Part shown: one piece after another, positions 10,257 to 31,358 of the stretch | Layout of the letters: each line of letters opens with the position of its first letter | Position numbering within the stretch: position 1 is the first letter of the stretch | DNA from: Sedimenticola sp. | GTDB taxonomy: Bacteria; Pseudomonadota; Gammaproteobacteria; Chromatiales; Chromatiaceae | Assembly: GCA_026983675.1 (NCBI GenBank) | Contig: JALSTP010000172.1 | Location: forward strand, 1 to 36,616 | Length of the DNA stretch: 36,616 nucleotides | Reading direction: 5' to 3' | Made by a program: the position numbers and the translations under genes | The notes under the pieces: generated by a model | Databases searched by the model: none | Told to the model about the DNA's origin: nothing | The model's input: the letters and a program-made list of their open reading frames with translations, nothing else

Positions 10257-11528
10257 TCAGTCGATGGTGATGAGCCGCGGTGGTCGTGGCGAGGTGGAGG
10301 TGTGGTTTCGATCCGCGCCTGCTTTCCCGTCAAAGGGTGGCGCCATGGGGGCGCGCCTCGCAGCGCCGTGGCCGCCGATGCTGGTGGGGCCGTTGTCATC
10401 GACCACGTGCAGATGGCTGATGATCGTCCGGATGTCCCGCATCCATTGGCCTTGGGTATTGTTGGGCGGGGCATTCTTGTTGCCGTAGGCCTCCAATGAA
10501 TGGCCATATCTCTGCCGGAAGGCCGCGTCCGCTTCATAGGTGGCGGAAAAGCTATTGCGGACCCGCTCGCCAGTACCGCTTCCATCCGCGAGATAGGCGC
10601 CGAAATCCTGCAACACGTCGAAGAACTTCTTCCCGGCTGCCGTTGTGATCCCAAGGTCGGTGTAGGTGAGGTTGGGCGGCAATGCCAGGAGGGCGCCCTC
10701 CACCAATCCCCGGACATGGGAACTGGCGTAACCTTTATGATTTACGTGCTTCGACCAATGGTTGTCGCAGTTCTTCGCGGGCCAGCGTTTTTCACATTTC
10801 TTTTTTGTACGGTCCATATACATCTGATAGGGGCGCAGGTTGATCTTGAGTGCGTGGCGGATAGGCGCGTCGTTGGCGAAGTCCGTGGCCCGCAGCGTGC
10901 CGCCGATGGAGGAGAGACCCGAACCGCCGTGGCCACCAAAGCAGGTAATGCCGTCCCCCTTGAGGGACTCCGTGCACTGGCTAAAGGCTTGGTTCAGACC
11001 GTATACGGGGCCGCCTTTCTTGCATCGCCCCAGCGCGTTCAGTTGCCGTAATGTATCACCATCCGGCGCGATCACTGCGGTCGAATGGTTCCTTCCGTAA
11101 GGCGTCACTGGCGCGAGAAAATCGTGGGGAAAATGAATCTTCATCGGCCGACCCAAGGGGACCGTTCCCCGGCAGCGGTCCGGATTTTTCCCGTAGATAT
11201 ACCGGTTGGAGTTACCGGGGATACCCCCAGCCAGGTAAACCGGCACAAGGGGGTCACTATCGGATGTGGCGACGATAATGTCATGATCGATGTCCACGTC
11301 ATCCGGTGGCACGAGTTTCGCGTTCACATAGTGTGCATCACAACCGATGGGCATGTTCCATACGGACCGGGCGTCGAAGGGCCACTCCAGGGCATTGCGC
11401 GTCTTCGGCGTATCGGGGTAATCGCGGTGAGAACAATGGGATGCAGCATGAACGACCTTAAACGGGTTGAACGCTGACAGCATCAACAGTCCCAATAAAA
11501 TGGATGTTTTGCGTATTTTTTCTTGCAT
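10257..11528 (-). CDS. Secreted protein of unknown function
   Basis: I do not recognise this 423-residue protein. It begins with a clear Sec signal peptide (basic MQEKIRKT, hydrophobic ILLGLLMLSAF, probable cleavage after VVHA near residue 29). The mature part is rich in His, Asp, Gly and Cys. It contains SVWNMPIGCDAHY, GRNHSTAVIAPDG and FGGHGGSGLSSIGGTLR, and has at least eight cysteines, which suggests disulfides in the periplasm or outside the cell. The C-terminal 40 residues (Pro, Arg and Gly rich) look disordered. ATG 11528 follows AGAAGG on the minus strand; a TTG at 11546 is possible but has no ribosome site. It converges on yoaA with a seven-base gap and diverges from tsaB. The GC content resembles its neighbours, so there is no sign of recent transfer. 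Confidence 0.7.
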   Translation of the reverse strand: MQEKIRKTSILLGLLMLSAFNPFKVVHAASHCSHRDYPDTPKTRNALEWPFDARSVWNMPIGCDAHYVNAKLVPPDDVDIDHDIIVATSDSDPLVPVYLAGGIPGNSNRYIYGKNPDRCRGTVPLGRPMKIHFPHDFLAPVTPYGRNHSTAVIAPDGDTLRQLNALGRCKKGGPVYGLNQAFSQCTESLKGDGITCFGGHGGSGLSSIGGTLRATDFANDAPIRHALKINLRPYQMYMDRTKKKCEKRWPAKNCDNHWSKHVNHKGYASSHVRGLVEGALLALPPNLTYTDLGITTAAGKKFFDVLQDFGAYLADGSGTGERVRNSFSATYEADAAFRQRYGHSLEAYGNKNAPPNNTQGQWMRDIRTIISHLHVVDDNGPTSIGGHGAARRAPMAPPFDGKAGADRNHTSTSPRPPRLITID

Positions 11529-11614
11529 GCGCCTTCTCTTTTCCAAATCGAACCTCTATTTTAGCAAGATACCCGCTAAAATATACGACCTTCATTCCAA
11601 ATTCTTGAATAACC
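11529..11614. promoter_or_regulatory. Divergent promoter region with an 8-bp inverted repeat
   Basis: This 86-base AT-rich spacer separates the minus-strand secreted-protein gene from tsaB. It contains ATTTTAGC at 11558-11565 and its exact complement GCTAAAAT at 11575-11582, separated by nine bases. The repeat lies midway between the two starts and could be an operator or overlap both promoters. It is not a terminator, as both genes point away. No clean -35/-10 pair can be assigned. Confidence 0.4.
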
Positions 11615-12400: not shown

Positions 12401-13384
12401 CTATTCGGGGTTCTCCGCCGCTTTTGTTTGGGACGCAGGGGCGGGTTCCTGGTAGTAGTAGTCGTACTTCTTGTGCAGGGTGCTGGTAAATGAGAAGGCC
12501 TCGTTGTAGGTGAGACCGCTCTTCTTGGGGATGATGACTTTCACATAAAGGTCGTTGGGGTATTGCTTCTTGAGGGCAGCAAGGCGGGCGTGCAGGGCGC
12601 TTCTGGTTACGGCCTTGTAGGCCGTTTTCCCCGGTTCTCTGATGGCGATGCGTTCTTTGCCATTGGTCTTTTCGTAACGTACCTCGACTACATATTTTCC
12701 ACTGGCGCTCCGCGCCGGGCGGATCAGTTTGTTATATTTGACTTCGAGGCTGGAATACTTGCTTCGCAGGTCGGCGAGGGTGGTATCCGATTTCTGCAGA
12801 CGCGCTTGGGCCTGTTCCAGTTGTTCTTCCTTTTCGCTGAAATTCTTTCGCAATGCCTCCAGTTCACCGACTGTGCTCTGGTGGCGTTTTCTCAGCTGTT
12901 CTATATCGGTGCGCATGGCCTGGGCGATACGTTGCGCGCTTGAGAGCCGGTCGCTCAGGTCCGCGTTTTTGTTCTTGAGTTGTTCGTTCTTCAGCGCAAG
13001 TTCATCACGTGCCTGAGTCAAGTGGCTGATTTGGCGCACCTGGCTGGCGATGGCAGCTTCCTGCTGCTCCCGCTGTTCTTCCATGTGCATCAGTTGCATG
13101 CGCAACTCGCTCAGTTCGCTTTCGGCATTGTGGAGGCGCAGGGCCAAGCTCTCCTTTTCCTCGCCCGTGGTGCGCGCCAGTTCGGCGGCGTGGCGCTCTG
13201 CTTCCATGGTGGCCCGCAGTTGCTTGACCAGTTCCATATTGCGGATCAGCAGCACCAGCATGGCCATCAGGAAAATCATGACGATGACCGTCATGACATC
13301 GGTGAACGACGGCCAGAAGCTCTCTTCGTTGAGGGTCTCCTGCCGGTTCAGGCGCAGGTCTATGAATCCTTGATTGCTGTCCAT
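12401..13384 (-). CDS. MotB/TolR-like protein: one membrane span, long coiled coil, TolR-like C-terminus
   Basis: This 327-residue protein pairs with the channel subunit encoded just upstream. The N-terminus is MotB/ExbD-like: WPSFTDVMTVIVMIFLMAM places Asp29 at the head of a single span (about 30-48), where MotB and TolR carry their proton-binding Asp. Residues of about 52-222 are almost uninterrupted coiled coil, rich in Glu, Gln, Leu, Lys and Arg, long enough to cross the periplasm. Residues of about 228-311 form a compact domain (VVEVRYEKTNG, LHARLAALKKQYPN, VKVIIPKKSGLTYNEAF) that resembles the periplasmic ExbD/TolR fold and not OmpA. The stop comes 16 residues later. It overlaps the channel gene by 25 bases. 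Its function is unknown. It differs from MotB and ZorB in lacking an OmpA peptidoglycan-binding domain. Confidence 0.75.
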   Translation of the reverse strand: MDSNQGFIDLRLNRQETLNEESFWPSFTDVMTVIVMIFLMAMLVLLIRNMELVKQLRATMEAERHAAELARTTGEEKESLALRLHNAESELSELRMQLMHMEEQREQQEAAIASQVRQISHLTQARDELALKNEQLKNKNADLSDRLSSAQRIAQAMRTDIEQLRKRHQSTVGELEALRKNFSEKEEQLEQAQARLQKSDTTLADLRSKYSSLEVKYNKLIRPARSASGKYVVEVRYEKTNGKERIAIREPGKTAYKAVTRSALHARLAALKKQYPNDLYVKVIIPKKSGLTYNEAFSFTSTLHKKYDYYYQEPAPASQTKAAENPE

Positions 13385-14364
13385 TCTGTCTCATCATCGG
13401 CCTGCTGCGTAGGGCTTTCGGCCGAAGGTGCCGCGCTGGCCTCTTCGGGCAGCCGGAATCCGCGCAGCAGCGTTGTCCGGATATCGGTCATCTGGCTGGA
13501 GACCTCGTCGATGCGGCTCTGATTGCTCTGCACGGTCTCCAACAGCCGCCGCTCGATGTTTTCAAAGGTATGCTGCGAGGTCTCCATCTGCCCCACCAGT
13601 CCTTGCAGCGAGCGGATGAGGCCAGAGAACTCGTAGAGTACATTGTCGGGCTGCACCTGGAAACGGGGCATCAGATAGCGGGTGGTGACTTGCTCGATCC
13701 CGCTGATCAGGTTGGTCTGAACATCGTTCAGTTTGAGAAAGAAATAGCCAAAATAAAGGTAGCAGAGAATGGCGGTGATGGTGGTGGAAAGGGCAGTGGA
13801 CATGCCATGGATCACCATCCCCATGCCGCTCACGTCGACCGACGATTCGAGCATGTTGGAGGCCCCCACCAAGGCGATGGAGAGGGAGACAATGGTGCCG
13901 AAGACGCCGGTCAGGATCAGGATGTTGTTGATGAACTTGGCAAGGCTGGTGCGGGTGCTCTCGGTGGCGACGAGCGTCGAGGCGAGGGCGCTGTGATTGA
14001 TGGGGGAGTTGGCCTTCCAGAGCCGTTCCATGGTGCGATGGCGCTGGGCAATGAGGGTGTTGGCCGGTACCCGTTGGAGGGGATCCCCTGTGTGACTCTC
14101 CACGTTGGCGATGTAGCGGTCCAGGGCCCATTCTTCCCGCACATAACGGACCAGGAGCACTATGACCTTCACGATGCCAAGGGCGAACAACGCAACGATG
14201 GCGCCGTTGATCAACAGGCCGGTGGAGGTCAGTTGGTTGTGGAAATAGAGGCCGTCGATGAACTTCCATTTCCACACGAACAGGGCCGCGGCGAGGAGGG
14301 CGAGGATGACCATCCGGATGAGGATGTCAACGGCAAAACGGCGATGGAGTTGAATGCTTTCCAA
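13360..14364 (-). CDS. MotA/TolQ/ExbB-family proton channel subunit
   Basis: This 334-residue membrane protein has four predicted spans at about 14-33, 48-75, 147-170 and 181-210. A cytoplasmic loop at 76-146 lies between spans two and three, and a cytoplasmic tail of about 120 residues ends the protein. The segment ILTGVFGTIVSLSIALVG and the later MGMVIHGMSTALSTTITAI are the two pore helices typical of the family, the second with the conserved Thr-Thr. The tail contains a probable coiled coil (FENIERRLLETVQSNQSRI, about 267-300). With the next gene it should form a proton-driven motor complex of five channel subunits and two plug subunits, by analogy with TolQR, ExbBD and MotAB. No TolA, TonB or flagellar gene is nearby, so the driven process is unknown. 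Confidence 0.85.
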   Translation of the reverse strand: MESIQLHRRFAVDILIRMVILALLAAALFVWKWKFIDGLYFHNQLTSTGLLINGAIVALFALGIVKVIVLLVRYVREEWALDRYIANVESHTGDPLQRVPANTLIAQRHRTMERLWKANSPINHSALASTLVATESTRTSLAKFINNILILTGVFGTIVSLSIALVGASNMLESSVDVSGMGMVIHGMSTALSTTITAILCYLYFGYFFLKLNDVQTNLISGIEQVTTRYLMPRFQVQPDNVLYEFSGLIRSLQGLVGQMETSQHTFENIERRLLETVQSNQSRIDEVSSQMTDIRTTLLRGFRLPEEASAAPSAESPTQQADDETEWTAIKDS

Positions 14365-14406
14365 AGGCGGCCTCCTGATCCGTGCGCAAAATCCCCAGGA
14401 TCACAA

Positions 14407-14491
14407 TATTGACCCGGCAACAAAATATATATCGTACTCAGCCATGGCGTTCCGGCGCCTGCCAGCGGCATATATCACTATCGGGTTGATA
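14407..14491 (+). mobile_element. Short MITE-C derivative (85 bp)
   Basis: The left end TA-TTGACCCGGCAACAA and the right end ATCGGGTTGA-TA match the termini of the 335-bp MITE-C element, with the right end partly decayed. The whole central section is missing; what follows the left end (TACTCAGCCATGGCGTTCCGG) matches the right-end interior of the full copies. It therefore looks like an internal deletion. It occupies the space between the divergent channel gene and glycerate kinase, where it could contribute to either promoter. Confidence 0.75.
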
Positions 14492-14580
14492 GTCACAAGA
14501 TTCCCAATTGGAAAAAGCTTACCACAAAATATCCGGTGACTTGGTATTCTCTATCCATGCGTTTAGAGGACGACATCACA

Positions 14581-15831: not shown

Positions 15832-16636
15832 GGCGGCGGCCCGTTGCATCGAAACGGGGGAGCCGGAGGAGAAGTGCCGTTTGACCCTGGACACAGCGGC
15901 CCGGTGGCGGAAAGGGGCGCTGTCTCTCGAACCTGGCGAGGCTCCTCGCCCTATTGGCGAACCGGGACGCCCGGCACGGCCGGCGTTGGTGCATCCCCGG
16001 GAGCTGCCGCGGCGTCGGCTGGGGTCGGCGGAGGGGCGGGCGGCGCTGTTGCATGCGGTGGTGCATATCGAGTTCAACGCCATCAACCTCGCCTGGGACG
16101 CGGTCTACCGTTTCCGTGGGATGCCGGCGGCCTTCTATGCAGACTGGTTGGGTGTGGCCGACGATGAGGCGCGCCATTTCCGGTTGCTGGAACGCCGTCT
16201 CCACGCGTTGGGGTACGTCTACGGCGATTTTCCCGCCCACAATGGTCTGTGGGACATGGCCGTGCGTACCGCCCATGATCCCTTGGCGCGCATGGCAATG
16301 GTGCCACGGGTGATGGAGGCGCGGGGATTGGACGTGACGCCGGGGATGCGCGAGCGTTTTCTCCGTATGGGGGATCGGGCCACGGCCGATGCGCTGGAGG
16401 TGATCCTGCGCGAAGAGGTAGGCCATGTGGCGACCGGCAGCCGCTGGTTCCGTTATCTCTGTGCGGTTCGGGGGCTGGAAGCGGAGGCCACCTATTTCGA
16501 GTTGCTCGACCACTATCTGCGGGGTGAGATCCGCTGTCCGTTGCAACGCGAGACCCGCCGTCAGGCCGGGTTCAGCGAGACCGAACTGAATCGATTGGAG
16601 GCTTTATGTCGCAAGTCCGGAAATTCTGTGTCGTGA
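15815..16636 (+). CDS. Ferritin-like DUF455 family protein
   Basis: This 273-residue soluble protein has a ferritin-like four-helix core. Metal-ligand patterns are visible in HAVVHIEFNAINLAWD (about residues 80-95), DDEARHF (about 115-121, ExxH) and LREEVGHVA (about 202-210, ExxH), as expected for a dinuclear iron or manganese site. The family is known as DUF455; its reaction is not established, though distant relatives include tRNA hydroxylase MiaE. The start overlaps glycerate kinase by 17 bases, and the end overlaps the next exported protein by 31 bases. The three genes thus form a tight unit, but no common pathway is evident. The start at 15815 (MMPLFEAA) lacks a strong ribosome site, as is common in coupled genes. 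Confidence 0.82.
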   Translation: MMPLFEAAARCIETGEPEEKCRLTLDTAARWRKGALSLEPGEAPRPIGEPGRPARPALVHPRELPRRRLGSAEGRAALLHAVVHIEFNAINLAWDAVYRFRGMPAAFYADWLGVADDEARHFRLLERRLHALGYVYGDFPAHNGLWDMAVRTAHDPLARMAMVPRVMEARGLDVTPGMRERFLRMGDRATADALEVILREEVGHVATGSRWFRYLCAVRGLEAEATYFELLDHYLRGEIRCPLQRETRRQAGFSETELNRLEALCRKSGNSVS

Positions 16637-17319
16637 TCTGCTGCCTGCTTTGGGCGGGGCCGGGTGTCGCGAACGCCTCTGGGGAGAAGGTGGCCGTCGA
16701 TCTGTTGATCTACCGGGTCACCGAGGCTGGGTCTGGGCCCTATATCAGCCGTATCCTGGTGAGTGACCGGTTTATGCGTCTCGATCAAGGGATGGAGTCC
16801 TCCGGTTTCATTCTTTTCGATCGGGAGATGGGCGCGATCTACAACATCTCCGACGATGATCGCACGGTGCTGGTGATCCATCCGGCAAAAAGAGCGGTGC
16901 GGAAACCTCCTTATCGCTGGCATGTCAGGCGGGTCCCGGCGGCGGATGCGCCGAAGGTTGGAGGTGTACAGCCTGAGCACTACCGCTTTCTCGCGGGTGA
17001 CGAGGTCTGTCGGGATGCCATTGTCTTGCCCGGTGTGATGGGGGCTGCGGTGGGCGCGCTGAGGGCCTATCGGCAAGTGCTGGCTGATCAGGAGGCCGTG
17101 ACCTTGCCGGGCATTCCAGATGACATGCGCAGTCCTTGTGGCGATGCCCTCAACCTGTATTCTCCAGAGGCGGAACTGGGAAGGGGGCTGCCGTTGAGGA
17201 CGTGGGACGCGGCGCGCAGGGAAGAACTGCTCGACTACCGTACCGGTTTTGAGGTCGCCTCTACCCTGTTCATCTTGCCGACGGGGTATGAACGCCTGAG
17301 GATGGGCAACGGGTTGTGA
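16606..17319 (+). CDS. Exported protein of unknown function
   Basis: This 237-residue protein is not recognised. An N-terminal signal peptide (VRKFCVVICCLLWAGPGVANA) predicts export with cleavage near residue 24. The mature region begins with a beta-rich stretch (VAVDLLIYRVTEAGSG, ISRILVSDRFMRLDQG) and a repeated strand-turn pattern (GFILFDREMGAIYNISDDDRT). This looks similar in style to periplasmic proteins annotated as DUF4412-like or LolA-like, but the similarity is weak. The C-terminal half has four cysteines, including a DEVC and an SPCGDALNLYSP stretch. The start overlaps the DUF455 gene by 31 bases in another frame. It converges on lpxH with a two-base gap. Confidence 0.7.
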   Translation: MSQVRKFCVVICCLLWAGPGVANASGEKVAVDLLIYRVTEAGSGPYISRILVSDRFMRLDQGMESSGFILFDREMGAIYNISDDDRTVLVIHPAKRAVRKPPYRWHVRRVPAADAPKVGGVQPEHYRFLAGDEVCRDAIVLPGVMGAAVGALRAYRQVLADQEAVTLPGIPDDMRSPCGDALNLYSPEAELGRGLPLRTWDAARREELLDYRTGFEVASTLFILPTGYERLRMGNGL

Positions 17320-21244: not shown

Positions 21245-22537
21245 GTGCCGTATTCAGATAGCCAACAAATCCCTGGTTCCCCTCGTGATGCTTGTATCGC
21301 AACGGTTGATACCGATAAAGAGATGGTTATGGAGTGTGAAAAATCGCAGACAAGGAATGCCGGCGTGCTCAAAGGCGAGTGCCTGATCTATTTTGGCCCG
21401 GAGCCATGGGAGGGCCTGTGGCGAAATCGTCACCAACTGATGTCGCGCTTCGCAAAAACGAATACGGTCTTTTATGTTGAACCACGCACTTCCTTCAAAC
21501 AATTATGGCGCGGAATATCCAAAGGGAAGATCGGTTTTAGGGAGATCTTTGGACGCATGTTTTCCGTAACCAAAGAGGGGGTGTATATCTACCATTCCCC
21601 TAAATGGCTGCCTGCCAACGAAAAGCCATTGTTCCGGCAAACCGCGAATTTCTTCTGGAAATGGTTGCTTCTCAAGAAAACTAGAAAGCTTGGGGCAGCT
21701 AGACCGATTGTATGGCTGTCTCGTCCTGACATGGTAAAGCTTGTCGGTGAATTCAACGAGAAATTGCTTGTCTACCATGTTGTGGATGAGTACTTGGGAT
21801 ACTATGGACAGACAGCCGAAAGAAAAGAGGAAATAAAAAAACGCGAGCAATTGTTGTTGAAAAAAGCGGATGTCGTTATTGTTGTATCAAACAACCTAAA
21901 AGAAAAGAAATCCAAATTTAATGAGAATACCTTTCTTGTGCCAAATGCAGTAGATTATGACTCATACGCAAAACCTTCCAATATTGTCAGCAAATTGCCG
22001 GATATAAAAGGCAATATAATTGGTTATTCAGGATTGATCAGTAATCGTCTTGATGTTGAGATGTTAAACTTCCTTGCTGAAAAACACAAAGAGTGGTCTT
22101 TTGTACTCGTAGGAGAAGTCGTGCGCGATTATTGTGAAGATCAGATGGCCAGATTTGAAAAGAATGATAATGTGCATTTTATTGGGCGTGTGGATGTTGA
22201 TGAGTTGCCGTCGGTCATCCAATCTTTCGAAGTTGGTATAATTCCATACAAGGTGGACCTCCAAGCAAATAACGTGAGTCCATTGAAGATCTATGAATAT
22301 ATGGCTGCAGGCTTGCCTGTGGTTACAACAGATTTTAGCGTTGCAAGGGAATTCGATCGAATGGTCTATGTTTGCGGAAATGCTGATGAGTTTGAATCAG
22401 CTTTGATGGACTGTATAAAAAGGGGGATGGACGTGCAATCCCATATAATGGAAGGTAAGGTGCTTGCAAAAAATAATACTTGGGATCATAGGGTGTTGCA
22501 GATATCGTGTATAATCAGAAACGCAATCAGGGATTGA
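21245..22537 (+). CDS. Glycosyltransferase, GT4-like (TuaH-like)
   Basis: This glycosyltransferase of about 430 residues has the GT-B fold and is probably retaining. The N-terminal domain begins with LIYFGPEPWEGLWRNRHQL. The C-terminal nucleotide-sugar domain contains IIGYSGLISNRLDVEML and the donor-binding stretch SPLKIYEYMAAGLPVVTTD, where the Glu of KIYEYMA corresponds to the conserved GT4 glutamate. It should add a sugar to a surface polysaccharide on the cytoplasmic side. The GTG at 21245 has an AAGGA six bases upstream; an ATG at 21323 is an alternative and would trim 26 poorly conserved residues. It is the first gene of the AT-rich cassette and is followed after 12 bases by the sulfotransferase. 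Sugar and acceptor are unknown. Confidence 0.82.
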   Translation: MPYSDSQQIPGSPRDACIATVDTDKEMVMECEKSQTRNAGVLKGECLIYFGPEPWEGLWRNRHQLMSRFAKTNTVFYVEPRTSFKQLWRGISKGKIGFREIFGRMFSVTKEGVYIYHSPKWLPANEKPLFRQTANFFWKWLLLKKTRKLGAARPIVWLSRPDMVKLVGEFNEKLLVYHVVDEYLGYYGQTAERKEEIKKREQLLLKKADVVIVVSNNLKEKKSKFNENTFLVPNAVDYDSYAKPSNIVSKLPDIKGNIIGYSGLISNRLDVEMLNFLAEKHKEWSFVLVGEVVRDYCEDQMARFEKNDNVHFIGRVDVDELPSVIQSFEVGIIPYKVDLQANNVSPLKIYEYMAAGLPVVTTDFSVAREFDRMVYVCGNADEFESALMDCIKRGMDVQSHIMEGKVLAKNNTWDHRVLQISCIIRNAIRD

Positions 22538-22549
22538 TAAATATTCTGT

Positions 22550-23454
22550 ATGGCTGTTCCTGGTGAGTATCAACCTATGATATTGACAATTAGAAAGCGT
22601 GCCAAGAATCGCCTATTGACTAAATTGGCCATATCTAAAAAATGCATCATCCAGTCATTTCGGCATTCCGGAACAAAAAGAACGCTTTTTATTTTCGGGT
22701 GTCAGAGGTCTGGAACGACACATATGACTGAAATATTCATGTTGGACCCTGATGCTGAGGTGTTTTCTGAAAAATCAGTGTTGAACATTCCTCCGAGGAA
22801 TATTGGCGATACCCGACCTGATGTAGACTTCGGATTGAGAGGATGTGGCGAGGTACAACGGATCATGGACCGCTATCCCGCCGACCTGAGGATAGCCAAG
22901 CCCATTGTGGATAGTCAGCATGCGGGTCGGTTGCTGGAATCTTCCCCATCGTCAAAAGTGGTATGGATTTACCGTAGATATTCGGATGTGGTGGCTTCAA
23001 ATCTCAAAAAATTTGGGCTGTACAATGACATTAATGACCTTTGCCCCATCGTGGAAGGTCGTCGTGATGACTGGAGATATGAGCGGGTTGGGGGGGGGAA
23101 GACAGAGAGCTTATACGGTCGTTTTTTTCCAAAGATATGAACCCATACGACGCAGCCGCTTTGTTCTGGTACTCTCGGAATAAGCATTATTTTTGGCCTG
23201 AAATACAGGATAATGAAAGAGTGTTGCCCGTCAAATATGAAGACCTGGTGACAAAACCGTCATCCGTGATGAGAAGGATATATCAACATATAGGCGCGCC
23301 ATATCCTGGAGATTACCTGGTCGCACAAGTCAAGACCACTTCGGTTGGCGAGGGTGCCTCGGTAACGCATAAAATATCAAAGCCTGTTTCGCGTCTCTGC
23401 GATACTCTGCTGGATCAACTTGATAGCGCCTATAAAGGGCTTCGGGCCTTGTAA
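22550..23454 (+). pseudogene. Sulfotransferase, frameshifted at a G9 tract (possibly phase-variable)
   Basis: Two overlapping reading frames together encode one PAPS-dependent sulfotransferase of about 300 residues. The first frame (22550-23140) has the 5'-phosphosulfate loop GCQRSGTTHM and the 3'-phosphate motif YRRYSDVVASNLKK. The second (ATG at 23137, ending 23454) carries the C-terminal part (MNPYDAAALFWYSRNK, VKYEDLVTKP). The second frame is open upstream of its ATG back into the run of nine G at 23090-23098, reading GEDRELIRSFFSKDMNP, which is more protein-like than the end of frame one. Ten or seven G would restore a single protein. The product would sulfate a polysaccharide or glycolipid. 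It may be an ON/OFF switch, a pseudogene or a homopolymer error. ATG 22577 is an alternative start. Confidence 0.75.
23090..23098 (+). repeat. G9 homopolymer tract in the sulfotransferase gene
   Basis: This is a run of nine consecutive G inside the coding region, at the exact place where the protein changes reading frame. Tracts of eight or more G in surface-structure genes are typical sites of slipped-strand phase variation. A run of seven T follows at 23122-23128 but lies after the likely shift point. Confidence 0.85.
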
Positions 23455-23485
23455 AGGTGACTTTATTTAATAACATGATGAGAAT

Positions 23486-24718
23486 ATGACACACGATCGC
23501 CATCATGTTTATTGTTTCGTGGTTGGGCTAAGGTATAAGGACGATAATGCTCCACCAAGCCCTTCTGGCACATTGACTGTTGTTTCAGAAATAATTAAAA
23601 ACTGGGGTCGGGAAGAGACAATATTTGTGCTTTGTAATAACAACTATACCAAGCGTTCCTTCCTGGAGATAAATGGGCAGCGGGAAAATGTTACAGTAGA
23701 AGTGTATCAGCAAGAAACCGTCCAGGACAAGTTGGCCAGGTTGTATGGTTCTGGAAAACGAGGGATGGCATTGATAAAGGCTGGCTACATTATACTCACA
23801 GCGCCCGTAATCACTCTCCAGGCGATGCTGGGACTTAGAAGGTATTTTATAGATAGAGCTGTTTCAGTAGTATATTCTCATAACGGGGGTTATCCTGATC
23901 GAAGTCTCAATCTTCTCTCTATTCTAGCCGCAAGAACAGCGCGCATTGGGAAAGCCCATTTGATATTACACAACATGCCCACCCCGATTGGCTTCAGGAA
24001 CTATCCTTACGCATATTTTCTGGATCATGTCGTTGGTTTGGCGGCAACAAATATTGTCTCGGTCTCAAAGGCCTGCGCCTCTGTGCATGAAAAAACAAGG
24101 CATTTCGGTGTACAGATTAAACATATCTATAATGGATTGAGTATTAGGCAAAATATTGAGCGTGCAAGCGATTCGGAAAGACCAGAATGGTGGGGTGATA
24201 GGCCCGTAATAATGTTTCTCGGCTCCCTTCAGCCGCGAAAGGGTCTGCATATTCTTATTCGCGCAATGGCGCAAATGAAGATTGATGCAACCTTGGTTGT
24301 CTATGGTTCGGGGGATGAGGAATATACACGTTTTCTGAAAGAGCAAGCGGCTGATCTAAGTATAGGGGACCGGGTCAGGTTTCAGGGATATGATGAAAAT
24401 GCAGCGTTCAAGCTGCATTATGCAGATGTTCTCGTGCTGCCTTCAATCCAGTATGAAAGTTTCGGGATGGTTATCCTGGAGGCGATGCTGCGGCGAAAGC
24501 CAGTGGTATGCAGTGATTACGGCGGCATGAAAGAGGTGGTGCAGGATGGTGTTACGGGAATTGTTACGCCTGCAGGTCATCCGAAGTCCATTGCCGACGC
24601 CCTGGACAAAATTCTTGGAAATAAGGAACAAGCTCATAAGATGGGAGAGGCAGGCTATCATAGGCTTTTGGAAAAATTCGATATCGCGCAGACGGTGCGA
24701 GCCTATAAAGCATTATAA
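23486..24718 (+). CDS. Glycosyltransferase family 4 protein
   Basis: This 410-residue GT-B glycosyltransferase has clear GT4 signatures: MFLGSLQPRKGLHILIRAM at the start of the C-terminal domain (about residues 243-261), the donor motif YESFGMVILEAM with the E-x7-E pair, and GGMKEVVQDGVTGIV. It probably transfers a nucleotide-activated sugar to a growing cell-surface glycan in the cytoplasm. ATG 23486 follows a weak GATGAGA. It lies 31 bases after the sulfotransferase and 46 bases before the membrane protein gene, so all four cassette genes may be one operon. Codon usage is AT-rich like its cassette neighbours. Confidence 0.88.
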   Translation: MTHDRHHVYCFVVGLRYKDDNAPPSPSGTLTVVSEIIKNWGREETIFVLCNNNYTKRSFLEINGQRENVTVEVYQQETVQDKLARLYGSGKRGMALIKAGYIILTAPVITLQAMLGLRRYFIDRAVSVVYSHNGGYPDRSLNLLSILAARTARIGKAHLILHNMPTPIGFRNYPYAYFLDHVVGLAATNIVSVSKACASVHEKTRHFGVQIKHIYNGLSIRQNIERASDSERPEWWGDRPVIMFLGSLQPRKGLHILIRAMAQMKIDATLVVYGSGDEEYTRFLKEQAADLSIGDRVRFQGYDENAAFKLHYADVLVLPSIQYESFGMVILEAMLRRKPVVCSDYGGMKEVVQDGVTGIVTPAGHPKSIADALDKILGNKEQAHKMGEAGYHRLLEKFDIAQTVRAYKAL

Positions 24719-24764
24719 GCTATGAACAGGTCGGCCTGCTTGAAAAGAAAAAAGGTGTGCTGGA

Positions 24765-26081
24765 ATGGATAAAGACGTACTGTTTTTGCTTGGTGTGGCG
24801 GCAGTAGTAATTATTGGCCTAATAAATATCAGGCAATTATATGTAACGCTTTTTGTTGTAACGATGATTCTTGTCCCGTTTGGTAATGCCCGTTTTTTGC
24901 CGCGATCGGTGCTGGGCATTCAAGGGTTGAATGTAATAAACATCGTGTGGGTGTTGTTGTTCATCGTTACATTGGGCCTGTTGATTCTAAAGAGGGAAAA
25001 ACTATATTTGCGAGAGTATTTCTCTGGCCCAATATTGATAATATTATTAATATATTTTGTTGCCGCGTTACGAACGATAGTGGACCTGGATTCTTTGAAA
25101 GGGGCAACGTCCATAATGCCTGCGGGAAGGAATATGCCGCTCGGATTGGCGACACGCATATTAAACGATTTTATAAAACCTGTGCAGATTGTGCTCGTTG
25201 GCTGGATGGTTTTGGTTTCGTGCCATTTTAAGGGGCGGGAGCTCGTCGGGAAGGCGCTAATAGCCACGACGATTGTGTTAGGCGTTGTTGTGTTGTTTGT
25301 TTTCTTTAAAGGCGCTGTAGAGCTGGGCGATTTTGATGAAGCGCGCATGGAAATAAACCGCAAGCTTGGCATGCATGCCAATTTGTTGGGGAGGATAGCG
25401 CTAGCGCTTTTTTTAAGCATTCTCTTTTTTAAAGGTAAAATCCCCTCGCTATGGCGTATAGTGTCGGTCTTTATGGCGTTGATGATAGTTGGTGTGTCGA
25501 TGTCGAGAGCATGCTATGGGGTGATTTTGCTTTCATTGTTCCTCTACTATAAGGATATCCCAAAAAACGAGCGGCGATTATTGTTGGGTATGATAGGGCT
25601 TGTTGTAGTAATGCTTTCGGGGGTAATTGTTGGGAGAATAACATATGGGGTAGATGAGACGCATGGGAAGATAGATATCAATGCGGTTTCGGCGTCAAGA
25701 GTGGACAGGATATGGGCCCCACTCGTTCCAACGATTGAGAAAAATATACTTGTTGGATTAGGATTGCATGGAATCAGGAAGTCGGAAGCTGCAAAGAAAG
25801 GAACGGTTTTTAGTCTAAGTCCGCATTCGGCGTATTTTGAATTGATACTCGATTCGGGTGCTCTTGGTGTTATTTTGTTTCTAGCTGCGATGTATTTCAT
25901 TTATAGGAGGTCAAAAAGATATAAGGATGAGGTATATTATTTGGTTATTCCAATAGTGATTCTCGGATTAACAGATCCGACCTTTTATCCAAAATTTACG
26001 TTTTATTATTTCTTTGTCATGTACGCGCTGTATAGATATGACGTTGCAATGGATGCACGTGGAGAGGAAAGTGCAGAATAA
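24765..26081 (+). CDS. O-antigen ligase/Wzy polymerase-like membrane protein
   Basis: This 438-residue polytopic membrane protein has roughly ten to twelve hydrophobic segments, starting at VLFLLGVAAVVIIGLIN. A larger hydrophilic loop before the last spans contains LGLHGIRKSEAAKKGTVFSLSPHSAYFELILDSG. The layout and the PHSAYFELILDSGALGVILF motif are typical of the Wzy/WaaL (O-antigen ligase) superfamily. It should polymerise or ligate undecaprenyl-linked glycan in the periplasm. Polymerase and ligase cannot be separated by sequence alone, but no flippase is next to it, so it depends on other genes. ATG 24765 is preceded by AAAAGG about 10 bases upstream. The gene stops 13 bases before inverted element B. 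Confidence 0.85.
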   Translation: MDKDVLFLLGVAAVVIIGLINIRQLYVTLFVVTMILVPFGNARFLPRSVLGIQGLNVINIVWVLLFIVTLGLLILKREKLYLREYFSGPILIILLIYFVAALRTIVDLDSLKGATSIMPAGRNMPLGLATRILNDFIKPVQIVLVGWMVLVSCHFKGRELVGKALIATTIVLGVVVLFVFFKGAVELGDFDEARMEINRKLGMHANLLGRIALALFLSILFFKGKIPSLWRIVSVFMALMIVGVSMSRACYGVILLSLFLYYKDIPKNERRLLLGMIGLVVVMLSGVIVGRITYGVDETHGKIDINAVSASRVDRIWAPLVPTIEKNILVGLGLHGIRKSEAAKKGTVFSLSPHSAYFELILDSGALGVILFLAAMYFIYRRSKRYKDEVYYLVIPIVILGLTDPTFYPKFTFYYFFVMYALYRYDVAMDARGEESAE

Positions 26082-26093
26082 TTGTATCGGCAC

Positions 26094-26259
26094 TAGGAGT
26101 CTGTCGGGTTTAGGTGATCGTCGCGAGCATGGTGGGAAAGCGAGGCCGGTTTTTCTCGATTTTGAGGCGCATAGTGGGCCTACGCAACGAAAAATCGAGG
26201 AAAAATGGACCGCTTTCCCACCAGCGCAGTAGATTAATCCTAAATCCGACAGACTCCTA
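26094..26259 (-). mobile_element. Palindromic element B, copy 2 (166 bp, inverted)
   Basis: This is the same sequence as the copy at 20925-21090 read on the other strand, with about five mismatches. The ends TAGGAGTCTGTCGG and CCGACAGACTCCTA are intact. It shares its right TA with element A copy 2. It closes the AT-rich cargo on the right and, with copy 1, gives the cargo inverted-repeat ends. Confidence 0.87.
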
Positions 26260-26423
26260 GCCCGGATTATTCATGAATCGCCGCGATGATTGCGCAGAGA
26301 ATTGTCCGCACAGGGGATTTTCCGACCAAGTGGAATACGGGCTGTATTGCCGAGGAAGGAAAATTCCCTGTGTGGACAAGGATCAAGCAAGGGCGCGAGC
26401 GACTTCATGAATAATCCGGGCTA
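26258..26423 (+). mobile_element. Palindromic element A, copy 2 (166 bp)
   Basis: This is the same orientation as the copy at 20761-20926, with about four differences, and the terminal 20 bp are unchanged. It is bordered by TA on both sides. Joining its right flank (GATATAGCGG) to the left flank of copy 1 (GCCGCATC) through one TA would give an intact cysS stop, a plausible ancestral empty site. Confidence 0.87.
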
Positions 26424-26467
26424 GATATAGCGGAGAGAATACATTGGCTGGCGTTACGGGGTAGGAA

Positions 26468-27577
26468 ATGAAAATATGCTTTGTTGGCCGGGACAACTAT
26501 CCGGTCCTCAACCCTTTAAGGGGAGAAGAGTACTTTGGTGGTGAGTCCGTCCAGCAAACGCTGCTGGCCAAGGCGTTCCGGGATAAGGGGTTTGAAGTCA
26601 GCATGATTACCAAGGACCATGGTCAGCCAGATGGGGAGGTGATTGATGGGATCAGGGTCTGGAAGATGATGCGAGACGGCGCCGGGTGGCCAGTGGTGCG
26701 TTTTATACACCCGCGTATGACCTCGCTGTTCAGGGCATTTAAAAATGCCGATGCTGATGTCTATTTTCAGTCGTGTGCTGGCGTATTCACGGGAGCGACG
26801 GCGAGGTATTGCGGCAGGCATTCAAGAAAATTCATATTCCGCATAGCGCACGATACGGATTGTATCCCAGGGGAATACTTAATCGGCAGGCCGTACTGGC
26901 GGGACAGCAGAATTTATGAATATGGCTTGAAGAGAGCTGGCTTGATTTCTGCTCAGAGCACCATTCAGCAGGATCTGTTGAAAAAAAACTTCGGTCTGCC
27001 TAGTAGGCTAATCAATATGGCAGTGGAGGTGCCGAAGGAAGGGAGCAAGGCCGACCGCGATATCGATGTGTTGTGGGTCAACAATATCCGGCCTTTCAAA
27101 AGACCGGAACTTGCGGTGGAGCTTGCCCGAAGGATACCAGGTCGCCGTGTGGTCATGATCGGGGGGCCGATCGAGGGGCATCGGGATCTCTACCATTCCA
27201 TCAAGCAGGCATCGGCGAAGGTGGAAAACCTTGAGTATATCGGTCAGGTGCCTTATTCGGAGGTCAATGGTTATTTCCAGCGAGCAAAAGTGTTTGTGAA
27301 TACGTCGGATTCCGAGGGTTTTCCCAATTCTTTTCTGCAAGCTTGGATTCGTGGGGTGCCCGTGTTTTCTTTTTTTGACCCGGATGGGCTCATTGCGCGC
27401 AATGGGTTGGGTGAGGTCCCCGAGGATGTTGAAGATATGGCGGCCCGGTTGGAGTCCGTTCTGTCAGACTCCCAGAGGTTGAAGCAGCTTTCCTATGACG
27501 TCGAGCAGCACGCGTTGGCGCACTACTCTCCAGGTAGTGTCGCTGATCAATACATCGACTGGATCGAATCCGTCTGA
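26468..27577 (+). CDS. Glycosyltransferase family 4 protein (outside the cassette)
   Basis: This 369-residue GT-B glycosyltransferase starts MKICFVGRDNYPVLNP. The acceptor domain carries the glycine-rich EEYFGGESVQQTLLAKAF. The donor domain contains VNNIRPFKRPELAVELARR and SEGFPNSFLQAWIRGVPV, the donor motif of a GT4 subgroup in which Gln replaces the second Glu. It presumably acts in surface-polysaccharide assembly. GGGGTAGGAA lies directly upstream of ATG 26468. Its composition is intermediate between the AT-rich cassette and the core, so it may be an older part of the same locus. Only 44 bases separate it from element A, so its promoter could come from the element. It is followed by the divergent-looking but co-directional TetR unit. 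Confidence 0.87.
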   Translation: MKICFVGRDNYPVLNPLRGEEYFGGESVQQTLLAKAFRDKGFEVSMITKDHGQPDGEVIDGIRVWKMMRDGAGWPVVRFIHPRMTSLFRAFKNADADVYFQSCAGVFTGATARYCGRHSRKFIFRIAHDTDCIPGEYLIGRPYWRDSRIYEYGLKRAGLISAQSTIQQDLLKKNFGLPSRLINMAVEVPKEGSKADRDIDVLWVNNIRPFKRPELAVELARRIPGRRVVMIGGPIEGHRDLYHSIKQASAKVENLEYIGQVPYSEVNGYFQRAKVFVNTSDSEGFPNSFLQAWIRGVPVFSFFDPDGLIARNGLGEVPEDVEDMAARLESVLSDSQRLKQLSYDVEQHALAHYSPGSVADQYIDWIESV

Positions 27578-27640
27578 TATTTTCAGCGCTGATTGACTAC
27601 TTGATCGATAGGGGTGAGGAAGAATGCCCCTCGAAATCCA

Positions 27641-27678
27641 TTGACATTTCCTCTTTAACATTCATACTGGTCGGTATG
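27641..27678 (+). promoter_or_regulatory. Promoter and TetR-type operator overlapping the regulator start codon
   Basis: A perfect -35 box TTGACA (27641-27646) and a -10-like CATACT (27663-27668) are 16 bases apart. CATAC/GTATG (27663-27667 and 27674-27678) form a pseudo-palindrome with a six-base centre, typical of TetR operators. It covers the -10 box and the ATG at 27676. Transcription would begin at about 27675-27676, leaving no room for a ribosome site. Confidence 0.6.
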
Positions 27679-28293
27679 TATGGAAAGCGCAATCCCGATG
27701 AGACCCGTCGCCATTTATTGGAGGCGGCTTATGAGGAGATCCACCGGGTGGGTTTTCAGGCCGCCAGTCTGGGCCGTATTCTGGAGCGTACCGGGGTTAC
27801 GAAAGGCGCGCTTTATCATCATTTCCCGAACAAGAAGGCACTTGGCTACGCTGTCGTGGATGAAGTGATCCGTGCGCAGCTCCACGCAGGGTGGGTGGTT
27901 CCCCTCAGGAGTGCGGACGATCCGGTGGACGGGATCATCCGGGTTCTGTCGGAGCGCGCGGCGGAGATGGGGGATCATCTGGTGCAATTGGGATGCCCCC
28001 TCAATAATCTTGCTCAGGAGATGGCGCCCGTGGATGAGGGATTCCGGCGCCGGATCGAGGCGCTTTTTCATCTTTGGCGGGGTGGCATAGCGGAGGCGTT
28101 ACGTCGGGGGCAGAGGGAGGGCCGGGTGCGCGAGGATCGCGTAGCGGAGGACTGTGCCTTGTATATCGTTTCGTCCATCGAGGGCTGTGTCGGTGCGGCG
28201 AAAAGCGCGCAGGACCGTAGGGTGCTTATTGCGTGTTCAGGGGGTCTGCTGGACTATCTTGAGGGCTTGAGAAGAGGGGAGGGGCATGGTTGA
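27676..28293 (+). CDS. TetR/AcrR family transcriptional regulator
   Basis: This 205-residue repressor has the N-terminal DNA-binding domain at about residues 8-55. The helix-turn-helix is seen in GFQAASLGRILERTGVTKGALYHHFPNK, which breaks into the standard TetR pattern ending in YHHF. The C-terminal ligand domain is less conserved. The ATG at 27676 puts the domain at the usual distance from the N-terminus; upstream TTG 27601 would add 25 unrelated residues. There is no Shine-Dalgarno, and the promoter places the transcript start at or next to the ATG, so a leaderless mRNA is likely. The stop overlaps the exporter start by eight bases, so it should control itself and the transporter operon. 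The inducer is unknown. Confidence 0.88.
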   Translation: MYGKRNPDETRRHLLEAAYEEIHRVGFQAASLGRILERTGVTKGALYHHFPNKKALGYAVVDEVIRAQLHAGWVVPLRSADDPVDGIIRVLSERAAEMGDHLVQLGCPLNNLAQEMAPVDEGFRRRIEALFHLWRGGIAEALRRGQREGRVREDRVAEDCALYIVSSIEGCVGAAKSAQDRRVLIACSGGLLDYLEGLRRGEGHG

Positions 28294-30625
28294 GTCTTAT
28301 GCGCGCTGGGTGGTGCGCTGGCGCTGGCCGTTGATTGGGTTGTTGATCGCTCTTGTCTTGCTGGCAGGCAGCGGTGTGCGATTCCTGAAGTTTCACACCG
28401 ATTACCGGATGTTTTTCAGCAAGGAGAACCCGCAACTTCAGGCATTCGAGAATCTGCAAGACACCTACACGAAGAATGACAATGTGTTGATCGTGCTCGC
28501 GCCCAGGGACGGGAATGTCTTCACGCGCGGGACGTTGGCTGTGGTGGAACAGGTAACGAAGGAGGCCTGGCAGACGCCGTACTCGATTCGCGTCGATTCG
28601 CTCTCAAACTTCCAGTACACCCATGCGGAAGGGGATGATCTCGTGGTCGAAGATCTGGTGCGGGATGCGAAGGGTCTGAGCGATGATGACTTGATGCGTA
28701 TTCGCCGCGCGGCGCTTGCCGAACCCTTGTTGGCGAAACGGCTGGTTTCTCCGGAAGGAGATGTCACCGGCATCAATATAACCCTTCAACTGCCTGGAAT
28801 CGACCAAACCAAAGAGGTTCCTGAGGTTGCGGCCTTTGCGCGGAAGATGGCGGACGAGATCCGGGTGGCGCATCCGGATATCGATGTCTATCTCACCGGC
28901 ATGGTGATCATGAACAATGCCTTTCCCACCGCCTCGAAGCACGATATGAAGACGCTGGTGCCGCTGATGTTTCTGGTGGTGATTATAACGTTGGGCCTGT
29001 TGCTGCGTACCGTGACGGGGACCTTCGTCACCGTGTTGACCATTTTCCTGTCGATCATCGGCGCCATGGGGCTTGCGGGTTGGCTGCGCATTCCGTTGTC
29101 GCCACCCACCGCTTCCGCTCCCACCATTATTCTTACTCTGGCGGTGGCGGATTGCGTTCACTTGTTGAGCACCTTCTATCACGGCATGCGCCACGGCATG
29201 ACAAAGCAGGATGCCATGGTGGAGAGTCTGCGTATCAACTTCCATCCGGTGTTTCTCACCAGCCTTACGACGGCCGTGGGCTTTCTCACCATGAATTTCA
29301 GCGATGCGCCGCCGTTTCGTTACCTGGGCAATATAACAGCCATGGGGGTGGTGTGGGCATTCGTGCTCTCGGTGACCCTGTTTCCGGCCTTGATGCTGGT
29401 ACTGCCCGTGCGCGTTCGACCACGCAAAGAGGATGGGTCGCACCCGATGGACCGTTTTGCGGAGTTTGTTATCCGCTGGCGCAGGGCCTTGTTGTGGGGT
29501 GTCGGCGCCTTGATCGTGGCACTGGTGGCCTTTATTCCGCGCAATGAGCTGAACGATGAGTTTGTGAAATATTTCGACAAGTCCGTTCCTTTTCGTGCTG
29601 CCACGGATTTCACGGCGGCGAACCTCACCGGCATCTATTACGTGGATTTTTCCCTGGAATCGGGCGAGTCGGGTGGCGTGAGTGCTCCCCGATTCCTGGC
29701 GCGGGTGGAGTCATTCGCCAACTGGCTGCGCACACAGCCGGATGTGATGCACGTCTACAGTATCACCGATATCATGAAACGTCTGAACAAAAACCTGCAT
29801 GGCGACGATCCGAAGTGGTACAGGTTGCCCGAAAAGCGTGACATGGCCGCGCAGTACCTGCTGCTCTATGAGATGTCGCTGCCGTACGGGCTCGACCTCA
29901 ACGATCGCATCAATGTGGACAAGTCGGCGACCCGCCTTACGGCGACGTTGGACAACGTCTCCAGCCAACAGGTACTGGCCCTGGAAGCGCGGGCGCGGGA
30001 CTGGCTCAGGGCCAATACGCCCCCTTCTATGCACACCCTGGGCACCAGTCCGACAATTATGTTCGCCCATATCGGCAAGCGCAATATCGAGAGCATGCTG
30101 GGCGGCACCTTCGTGGCGCTGGTTGTGATCTCGCTGATTCTCATCTTTGCGCTGAGATCGTGGAAGATCGGCTTCGTCAGTCTGCTGCCCAACCTGGCGC
30201 CGGCGGCCATGGCCTTTGGTGTCTGGGGGTTGCTGGTGGGCCAGGTGGGTCTGGCGCTCTCCGTGGTGGCCGCCATGACGCTCGGCATCGTGGTGGACGA
30301 TACCATCCATTTTCTGAGTAAGTACCTGCGTGCACGACGGGAGATGGCGTTGGCGCCCACCGACGCAGTACGCTACGCGTTTTCCACTGTTGGCACCGCC
30401 TTGTGGGTGACGACACTGGTGCTGGTGGCGGGGTTTTCGGTGTTGATGTTCTCCACCTTCAAGCTCAATTCGGGGATGGGGCTGCTCACCGCCTTGGCCA
30501 TTGCGCTGGCGTTGTTTGCGGATTTCCTGTTCCTGCCGCCGTTGCTGATGAAAATCGAGGAGAAAGAGGATGAAAAAGATCATTCTGATCGGCCTGATCG
30601 CGCCGCTGGCCCTGCCGGCGCTTGA
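28286..30625 (+). CDS. RND/MMPL family exporter
   Basis: This 779-residue inner-membrane transporter has duplicated halves, each with one span, a large periplasmic loop and five spans. The first loop covers about residues 35-215 and the second about 420-600. Charged residues of the proton relay are seen in TM4 (LAVADCVHLLS) and TM10 (GIVVDDTIHFLS), the pattern of the MMPL/HpnN branch and not the drug-exporting AcrB branch. These transporters usually move lipids or other hydrophobic molecules into the periplasm. ATG 28286 overlaps the TetR stop. The end overlaps the next gene by 56 bases, so the last 18 residues are encoded twice in different frames. Together with the next two genes it suggests an envelope lipid-transfer system. 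Confidence 0.92.
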   Translation: MVESYARWVVRWRWPLIGLLIALVLLAGSGVRFLKFHTDYRMFFSKENPQLQAFENLQDTYTKNDNVLIVLAPRDGNVFTRGTLAVVEQVTKEAWQTPYSIRVDSLSNFQYTHAEGDDLVVEDLVRDAKGLSDDDLMRIRRAALAEPLLAKRLVSPEGDVTGINITLQLPGIDQTKEVPEVAAFARKMADEIRVAHPDIDVYLTGMVIMNNAFPTASKHDMKTLVPLMFLVVIITLGLLLRTVTGTFVTVLTIFLSIIGAMGLAGWLRIPLSPPTASAPTIILTLAVADCVHLLSTFYHGMRHGMTKQDAMVESLRINFHPVFLTSLTTAVGFLTMNFSDAPPFRYLGNITAMGVVWAFVLSVTLFPALMLVLPVRVRPRKEDGSHPMDRFAEFVIRWRRALLWGVGALIVALVAFIPRNELNDEFVKYFDKSVPFRAATDFTAANLTGIYYVDFSLESGESGGVSAPRFLARVESFANWLRTQPDVMHVYSITDIMKRLNKNLHGDDPKWYRLPEKRDMAAQYLLLYEMSLPYGLDLNDRINVDKSATRLTATLDNVSSQQVLALEARARDWLRANTPPSMHTLGTSPTIMFAHIGKRNIESMLGGTFVALVVISLILIFALRSWKIGFVSLLPNLAPAAMAFGVWGLLVGQVGLALSVVAAMTLGIVVDDTIHFLSKYLRARREMALAPTDAVRYAFSTVGTALWVTTLVLVAGFSVLMFSTFKLNSGMGLLTALAIALALFADFLFLPPLLMKIEEKEDEKDHSDRPDRAAGPAGA

Positions 30626-31358
30626 GACCGCCGCAGGAACCGCGGAGGAGAAGGGGCTGGCGATCGCAAAGGAGTTCGATCGCCGGGATACCGGCTTTGG
30701 TGACTACCGCGCCGATATGGTAATGACATTACGCAACAAGAAGGGTGACGAGAGTATGCGTCACCTGCGCATTCGCATCAAAGAGGTAAAGGGCGATGGC
30801 GACAAGAGCATGAGCGTCTTCGATCGGCCTCGTGATATCAAAGGCACCGCGATGCTGACGTGGTCCCATGCTCTGAAGCCGGACGACCAGTGGCTTTACC
30901 TGCCATCCCTGAAACGGGTGAAGCGTATCGCCTCGCGTAACAAATCCGGTCCCTTCATGGGCAGCGAATTTGCCTACGAAGACCTGGCCTCGCAGGAGGT
31001 GGAGAAATACACCTACAAGTATCTGCGCGACGGGACATTGGACGGGCAGGATTGCTTTGTGATCGAACGCGTCCCGGCCTACGAATACTCCGGGTACAAG
31101 CGCGAGGAGGTGTGGTTTGACAAAAAGGAGTATCGGCCCCTCAAGATCGTCTACTATGACCGCAAGGGCGCCCTGCTCAAAACCGAGACCTTCAGCGGCT
31201 ACCATCAGTACCTCGGTCGTTACTGGCGCGCCGATCGCATTGAGATGGTCAACCACCAAACAGGCAAGAGCACGACGCTGGACTGGAAGGACTACCGATT
31301 CCGCAACGGACTGACCGACCGTGACTTCGATAAGAATACGCTCAAGCGCGCCCATTAG
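30570..31358 (+). CDS. LolA-like outer membrane lipoprotein-sorting family protein
   Basis: This 262-residue periplasmic protein of the COG2834/LolA-like family has signal peptide MKKIILIGLIAPLALPALETAA. The mature protein is a half-barrel: DMVMTLRNKKGDESMRHLRI, KGTAMLTWSHALKPDDQWLYLPSLKRVKRI and SEFAYEDLASQEV are characteristic stretches. These proteins carry a hydrophobic cargo through the periplasm, and members next to RND exporters are distinct from the housekeeping LolA. GGAGAAAGAGG precedes the ATG, which lies inside the exporter gene. The final codons and the stop form part of a strong hairpin, so the message probably ends here or is attenuated before the barrel gene. Confidence 0.88.
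   Translation: MKKIILIGLIAPLALPALETAAGTAEEKGLAIAKEFDRRDTGFGDYRADMVMTLRNKKGDESMRHLRIRIKEVKGDGDKSMSVFDRPRDIKGTAMLTWSHALKPDDQWLYLPSLKRVKRIASRNKSGPFMGSEFAYEDLASQEVEKYTYKYLRDGTLDGQDCFVIERVPAYEYSGYKREEVWFDKKEYRPLKIVYYDRKGALLKTETFSGYHQYLGRYWRADRIEMVNHQTGKSTTLDWKDYRFRNGLTDRDFDKNTLKRAH

Follow-up and report, generated by a model that had tools for sequence, protein, structure and literature searches.

Described ion-driven motors of the 5:2 kind include the flagellar stator MotAB, the Ton and Tol energisers ExbBD and TolQR, the Zorya motor ZorAB and GldLM. MotB carries a plug-helix Asp and an OmpA domain, and MotAB is linked to the flagellum. ExbD and TolR have a short linker instead of a long coiled coil, and are partnered with TonB or TolA. 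ZorB ends in an OmpA-like peptidoglycan-binding head, while ZorA has a long cytoplasmic tail that is needed for defence (PMC11890865). The model put forward for MotAB and ZorAB is that of a ring rotating around an anchored B-type subunit. In GldLM, the B subunit itself crosses the periplasm (PMC8986121, PMC9389320). A 2022 review of 5:2 motors asked whether any part of GldLM is a drive shaft through the cell wall, none having been seen, and offered the speculation that the torque limit of such motors lies in their anchoring coiled coils (PMC9389320). A 2025 survey reported diverse non-flagellar motors with compact heads (PMC12505986).

The window analysed here, 36,616 nucleotides in length, belongs as contig C172 to a gammaproteobacterial genome of 3.08 Mb. 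Two of its genes, A and B, had been read in a first-pass annotation as an overlapping channel and plug pair that might form an undescribed ion-driven motor. Both frames were recovered (Table 1), with 25 bases common to the two. Many genomes carry the pair at about 40-60% identity, which marks A and B as real genes. No description of the pair was found in PMC9389320 or PMC12505986.

Table 1. Features of the A/B locus, with positions in the window.
Feature	Positions	Strand	Basis
Gene A, ExbB/TolQ/ZorA-fold channel subunit, 334 aa	13360-14364	minus	TTG start set by homologue alignment
Thr156 of A, in GVFGT, equivalent to the conserved TM2 Thr of ExbB/TolQ	13894-13896	minus	Invariant in 65 diverse members
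Thr194 of A, in ALSTT, equivalent to the conserved TM3 Thr of ExbB/TolQ	13780-13782	minus	Invariant in 65 diverse members
Cytoplasmic C-terminal helix of A, residues 238-301 (64 residues), then tip GFRL, 301-304	13450-13650	minus	AlphaFold model
Gene B, plug/rod subunit, 327 aa, ATG start	12401-13384	minus	25-base overlap with A
Conserved cytoplasmic N-terminus of B, GF-DLRLNR	13322-13384	minus	Alignments
Membrane helix of B, residues 24-48, WPSFTDVMTVIVMIFLMAMLVLLIR	13241-13315	minus	Conserved in 65 members
Asp29 of B, predicted ion-binding residue	13298-13300	minus	Asp in 135 of 136 B proteins
Continuous coiled coil of B, residues 49-222	12719-13240	minus	Period 3.5, span fixed modulo 7, unbroken a/d register
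TolR/ExbD-fold head of B, residues 223 to about 313, terminal DYYYQ	12446-12718	minus	Predicted structure, VIA-align
Intergenic region between A and the divergent DUF4147/MOFRL (glycerate-kinase-like) gene	14365-14535		Arrangement recurs in relatives

The AlphaFold model of A (pLDDT 82) was matched to ExbB by Foldseek with a probability of 1.00, and in VIA-align its best 23 PDB rows were all ExbB, TolQ or ZorA (Z 13.7 to 10.6), as expected from the MotA/TolQ/ExbB-type channel that the first-pass annotation had proposed. On the window's A, the Pfam family MotA_ExbB (PF01618) scored 14.8 bits (E 0.025), under the curated cut-off of 22.9; 47 of 65 diverse A members matched it at E<=0.01, the best at E 8.7e-6. 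Searches of PDB sequences with the A profile (44 rows) and with the profile of the B head returned no relative, and relatives of both surfaced only through folds and the wider profile. Judged from its predicted structure, which settles the question, A is a divergent member of the MotA/TolQ/ExbB channel superfamily. Thr156 and Thr194 (Thr156 is numbered without the initiator Met) line up with the GT and ALxxT motifs of TolQ/ExbB, the GVFGT of A aligning with GLFGT of TolQ. Long open frames upstream of A in three loci (L156, L162 and L101) were examined as possible fusions and rejected, as they look spurious and not like extra domains.

In the membrane helix of B, Trp24 and Pro25 of the motif WPSFTD29 are invariant across the 65 members, and Phe27, Thr28 and Asp29 nearly so. 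Asp29, likened beforehand to the Asp of MotB, is indeed retained, since the sole exception among 136 correctly called B proteins is a Gly in the MAG HyVt-446 (L027/L068). In that protein (L027, G012:C23, 9507-10592), Asp9 and Thr32 are changed as well, making it a candidate for a naturally uncoupled motor, or else a MAG sequencing error.

A coiled coil of some 170 residues had been noted, and the coil of the window's B is about 174 residues long, from Asn49 to Pro223, proline-free and with a 3.5-residue period; fully helical, it would measure about 26 nm. Proline is absent from 131 of 133 B coils in the family, whose hydrophobic residues recur every 3.5 residues (mean power 1.69, versus 0.2 averaged over periods). 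The distance from Trp24 to the start of the head, Pro223 in the window, is coiled coil, unlike the short linker of ExbD and TolR. Across 130 distinct B proteins it takes 27 distinct values between 171 and 577 residues. It equals 3 modulo 7 in 122 of these proteins and in 20 of the 27 values (p 2.8e-11 against chance classes). To allow for shared ancestry among relatives, changes were also counted on the tree of A, which requires at least 49 changes of span and just 8 of span modulo 7; the same count under moduli 5, 6, 8, 9, 10 and 11 gave 41-45 changes. Six of the seven exceptional values equal 0 modulo 7, the result expected from a stutter of four residues or an insert of eleven.

The register itself is unbroken. 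When all B proteins with spans of 3 modulo 7 were pooled and numbered from Trp24, heptad positions 0 and 4 (a/d) were hydrophobic in 65% and 61% of cases, versus 19-28% at the other positions, and this register was common to the first 60 and the last 60 residues of the coil. The conserved residues T28, M31, F38, N49, L52, L56 and A66 occupy the same two heptad positions (from alignments, counted by hand), so the register extends into the membrane helix. Being unbroken from membrane helix to head, the coil constitutes a continuous rod; by its residue pattern, the axle and the rod appear to form a single helix pair of fixed phase and free length. Compared by description, GldM consists of folded domains, whereas B is one continuous coiled coil; the two share a subunit that itself crosses the periplasm in a 5:2 motor.

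Rod length varies widely. Its quartiles are 25.7-29.8 nm and its extreme 82 nm, in a set of B proteins slightly different from that of the span count. The longest rods, of 404-551 residues, would be 60-82 nm if straight, which exceeds the usual periplasm; a straight rod from inner to outer membrane thus fails for some members, and rod length is not a simple ruler between the membranes. Within the genus g73, B proteins of 617 aa (L166) and 701 aa (L170) occur alongside one of 315 aa (L175), and judged by these lengths the rod evolves fast. Near-perfect tandem repeats of 14 residues, ESEQLAxIEQLKxx, occur in the coil of L018/L032 and suggest one way in which rods might grow by whole heptads.

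The modulo-7 rule is evidence of coil continuity and not of movement, and it would hold also for coils with a signalling or tethering role. The pair could accordingly be a passive or sensory device, either an envelope tether or a gated ion channel that senses envelope spacing, with no cyclic motor action. A heptad-locked length would suit a static tether or signalling coil equally well, and the wide differences in length within g73 fit such a device. We nevertheless regard it as improbable, because the pair retains Asp29 and the two channel threonines, as energised motors do, and because a tether or ruler would be expected to fix length and not phase.

The head of B was modelled from a 55-row alignment, with residue blocks 41-80 at a pLDDT of about 95 and the element order beta-beta-(beta)-alpha-beta-alpha. 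Its best match among 992 PDB chains in VIA-align was TolR 5by4 (Z 7.8, 86 residues, 2.8 A), followed by the ExbD chains 8vgd (Z 6.6) and 8p9r (Z 6.5), and the next, unrelated row had a Z of 5.8. In Foldseek, TolR was found at rank 29, and hhalign of the head against five ExbD/TolR proteins of the same genome came back empty. The predicted match is moderate, and a Z under 8 alone would be weak. A chance match is unlikely, however, as the top three rows all belong to the TolR/ExbD family and the B gene adjoins an ExbB-like channel gene. The TolR-like C-terminal domain surmised in the first-pass annotation is thus borne out by structure comparison, as is the lack of an OmpA domain, which was matched in none of the B members listed.

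By its sequence comparisons, the nearest relative of A/B, closer than MotB, TolR or ZorB themselves, is the PRK09039 pair, found mostly in Alphaproteobacteria, in which a peptidoglycan-binding protein (NCBIfam NF006543) is joined by a channel partner of the MotA/TolQ/ExbB type. The window's B scores 39.5 bits against NF006543, far under the cut-off of 305. The partner channel of PRK09039 is homologous to A along 198 columns that take in the N-terminal helices (hhalign 97.8%, E 1.3e-12), whereas the MotA/TolQ/ExbB set of the window's own genome reached just 33% (E 4.5e-4). Its membrane helix, WP-x-F-x-D, is homologous to that of B (E 6e-9), and its long coil obeys a modulo-7 rule of its own, with spans of 184, 226, 429 and 569 all equal to 2 modulo 7 and 15 of 18 members conforming. 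Like A/B, it is a two-gene module beside housekeeping genes (suhB in 12 of 19, efp in 6 of 19). The heads differ, that of PRK09039 being OmpA-like and that of B TolR-like. In a tree from which ZorA-like proteins were excluded, as they lack the N-terminal helices, A forms a single clade (SH-aLRT 98) and the PRK09039 partners a separate one; together they are split from TolQ, ExbB and MotA of the same genome (SH-aLRT 98, a value qualified by long branches). Since channel, helix and phase-fixed rod are common to both pairs, they form a group of rod-bearing motors with two kinds of head. A/B represents a second branch of these 5:2-type motors, whose heads are exchangeable, and one that appears to be uncharacterised. 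In the open-licence literature, no paper was found on the function of the A/B or PRK09039 pair, under those or other names. The motor proposed by the first-pass annotation may hence be called undescribed in its function and in its A/B branch, and not in its whole architecture, as the PRK09039 pair already has the channel, helix and rod.

The A/B pair is widespread in Gammaproteobacteria and has members in further classes. It was found at 305 loci in the genome contig collection, in 12 of 38 near relatives and in 55 of 370 sampled genomes of the class, spanning 40 genera. It is present in one copy per genome in all but one of the 55, where the second match is partial. The best named relatives carrying it are Sedimenticola, Candidatus Thiodiazotropha and other Chromatiales; the cultured S. 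selenatireducens DSM 17993 and S. hydrogenitrophicus both have it. Across the phylum sample, the pair was matched in 21 of 397 genomes, 19 of which belong to two families from outside the class. In all 52 loci studied in depth, A and B lie side by side on one strand. In two genomes of one genus outside the class (G423 and G429; L207, L209, L245, L247), a full-length B lies away from A, and in G423 a headless B remnant is still beside A. The relocated B proteins (L245, L247) have spans of 213 and 220, both 3 modulo 7. This persistence of A with B, even where the full-length B has moved off, supports a need of A for full-length B.

The flanks of the pair are housekeeping genes that differ by family: in that of the window they are glycerate-kinase-like DUF4147 and DUF455 genes, and in another they are his genes and dtd. 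No third partner recurred, as every neighbour family was present in at most 9 of the 52 loci; the commonest, the divergent DUF4147/MOFRL gene, is confined to two families, one of them the window's. Next to the pair there is no gene for TonB, TolA, flagella or defence, in agreement with the first-pass annotation, and TolA, TolB, Pal or TonB was seen beside it at none of the loci examined. Elsewhere in the window, two proteins (10257-11546, minus; 16606-17319, plus) have no Pfam match at E<=1e-4, the latter recurring by the pair in 4 of 52 loci. A downstream stretch (21245-27577) encodes glycosyltransferases, a sulfotransferase-like protein and an O-antigen-ligase-like protein, and is a probable surface polysaccharide cluster. 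It is followed at 27601-31358 by consecutive genes for a TetR regulator, an MMPL transporter and a LolA-like lipoprotein sorter.

These surroundings bear on whether A/B belongs to a system already named. A/B has in common with ExbBD/TolQR the channel fold (Z up to 13.7), the plug-helix Asp and the head fold, and with MotAB the 5:2-type superfamily and the plug-helix Asp. Such shared ancestry and the TolR-like head would be expected of a second Tol or Ton energiser, or of a flagellar stator. That identity is very improbable, however, given that neither TonB, TolA nor any fli gene lies beside the pair, and that the window's own genome has a separate tolQ-tolR-tolA locus (contig C10), other exbBD pairs and three motAB-like pairs. 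TolB is present in 54 of the 55 genomes with the pair, so A/B is not a replacement for Tol-Pal, and fliG in just 28 of them, so it is not a flagellar part. With ZorAB, A/B shares the channel fold with a cytoplasmic tail and a ZorB-like membrane helix. The best structural matches to A include ZorAB, and the closest of the defence models, ZorA2 (E 1.3e-5) and ZorB1 (E 6e-6), match weakly; on the window's B, NCBIfam ZorB1 scored 21.9 bits versus a cut-off of 400. A Zorya-like antiphage system is nonetheless hardly credible here. ZorAB is found with defence partners in a mobile context, whereas A/B is a single copy by housekeeping genes, at the same position in many relatives and outside any defence-island context; plasmids and phages yielded no pair at the limits used, the neighbour families of the 52 loci show no recurring candidate for a Zorya effector, and its head is TolR-like instead of OmpA-like. 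By the tests made, A/B is not Tol, Ton, a flagellar stator or Zorya.

G301, F302 and R303, at the cytoplasmic end of A, are invariant across the 65 diverse members, following a poorly conserved helix, and GFR was found in 140 of 140 A proteins, even where the adjoining B is a headless remnant. A heptad-phase lock of the A tail was considered and rejected, as tail spans (mostly 149 or 164) are not fixed modulo 7. So strong a conservation of the GFRL tip suggests that the motor does some of its work on its cytoplasmic face. The B head could thus be anchored in peptidoglycan with the A ring rotating around B, and the output would then be cytoplasmic, through the C-terminal helices and GFRL of A. 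A rotating ring would account for the invariant tip, and TolR-fold heads can bind peptidoglycan. ZorA likewise has a long cytoplasmic tail (PMC11890865). We consider this arrangement rather unlikely, since no cytoplasmic partner recurs in any of the 52 loci and the rod of about 26 nm far exceeds the reach needed. The dimensions of the envelope are such that a far shorter rod would reach the peptidoglycan. A separate observation is that the tip, GFRLPEE (13450-13461), resembles the conserved B N-terminus, GFIDLRLN (13322-13384). Both are presumably cytoplasmic, and from this likeness of motifs they might share one binding partner or bind each other.

We hypothesize instead, with slightly more confidence than doubt, that A/B is an ion-driven 5:2 motor that turns or pulls a TolR-headed coiled-coil rod, whose head acts on peptidoglycan or the outer membrane. 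By homology with MotAB, ExbBD, TolQR and ZorAB, it would be driven by protons or sodium, with five A subunits encircling the membrane helices of a B dimer and ions passing via Asp29 of B and Thr156/Thr194 of A. The membrane helix of B would pass hinge-free, its heptad register kept, into a dimeric coiled-coil rod, about 26 nm long in the window's protein, that bears the TolR-fold head. Turning or pulling of this rod would carry torque or tension to the head, which may act on either envelope layer, and no separate transducer such as TolA or TonB would be required. A turning or pulling rod accounts for the rod's length, its continuity and the missing transducer; continuity, however, is required of any stable rod, moving or not, which counts against a motor-specific reading.

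A/B appears to be an envelope machine that is common on chromosomes and has no function described in the literature found. What is new is that the span is free to vary while the heptad phase stays fixed; the coiled coil is the motor's own plug subunit, and its span varies more than threefold in nature with the phase preserved. Because span is variable and phase fixed, the drive shaft question is directly testable in B by adding or removing whole versus part heptads. It is possible, if on balance doubtful, that these pairs constitute a motor class with a built-in, torque-transmitting coiled-coil driveshaft of free length, fixed helix-to-head phase and an exchangeable tip, TolR-type here and OmpA-type in Alphaproteobacteria.
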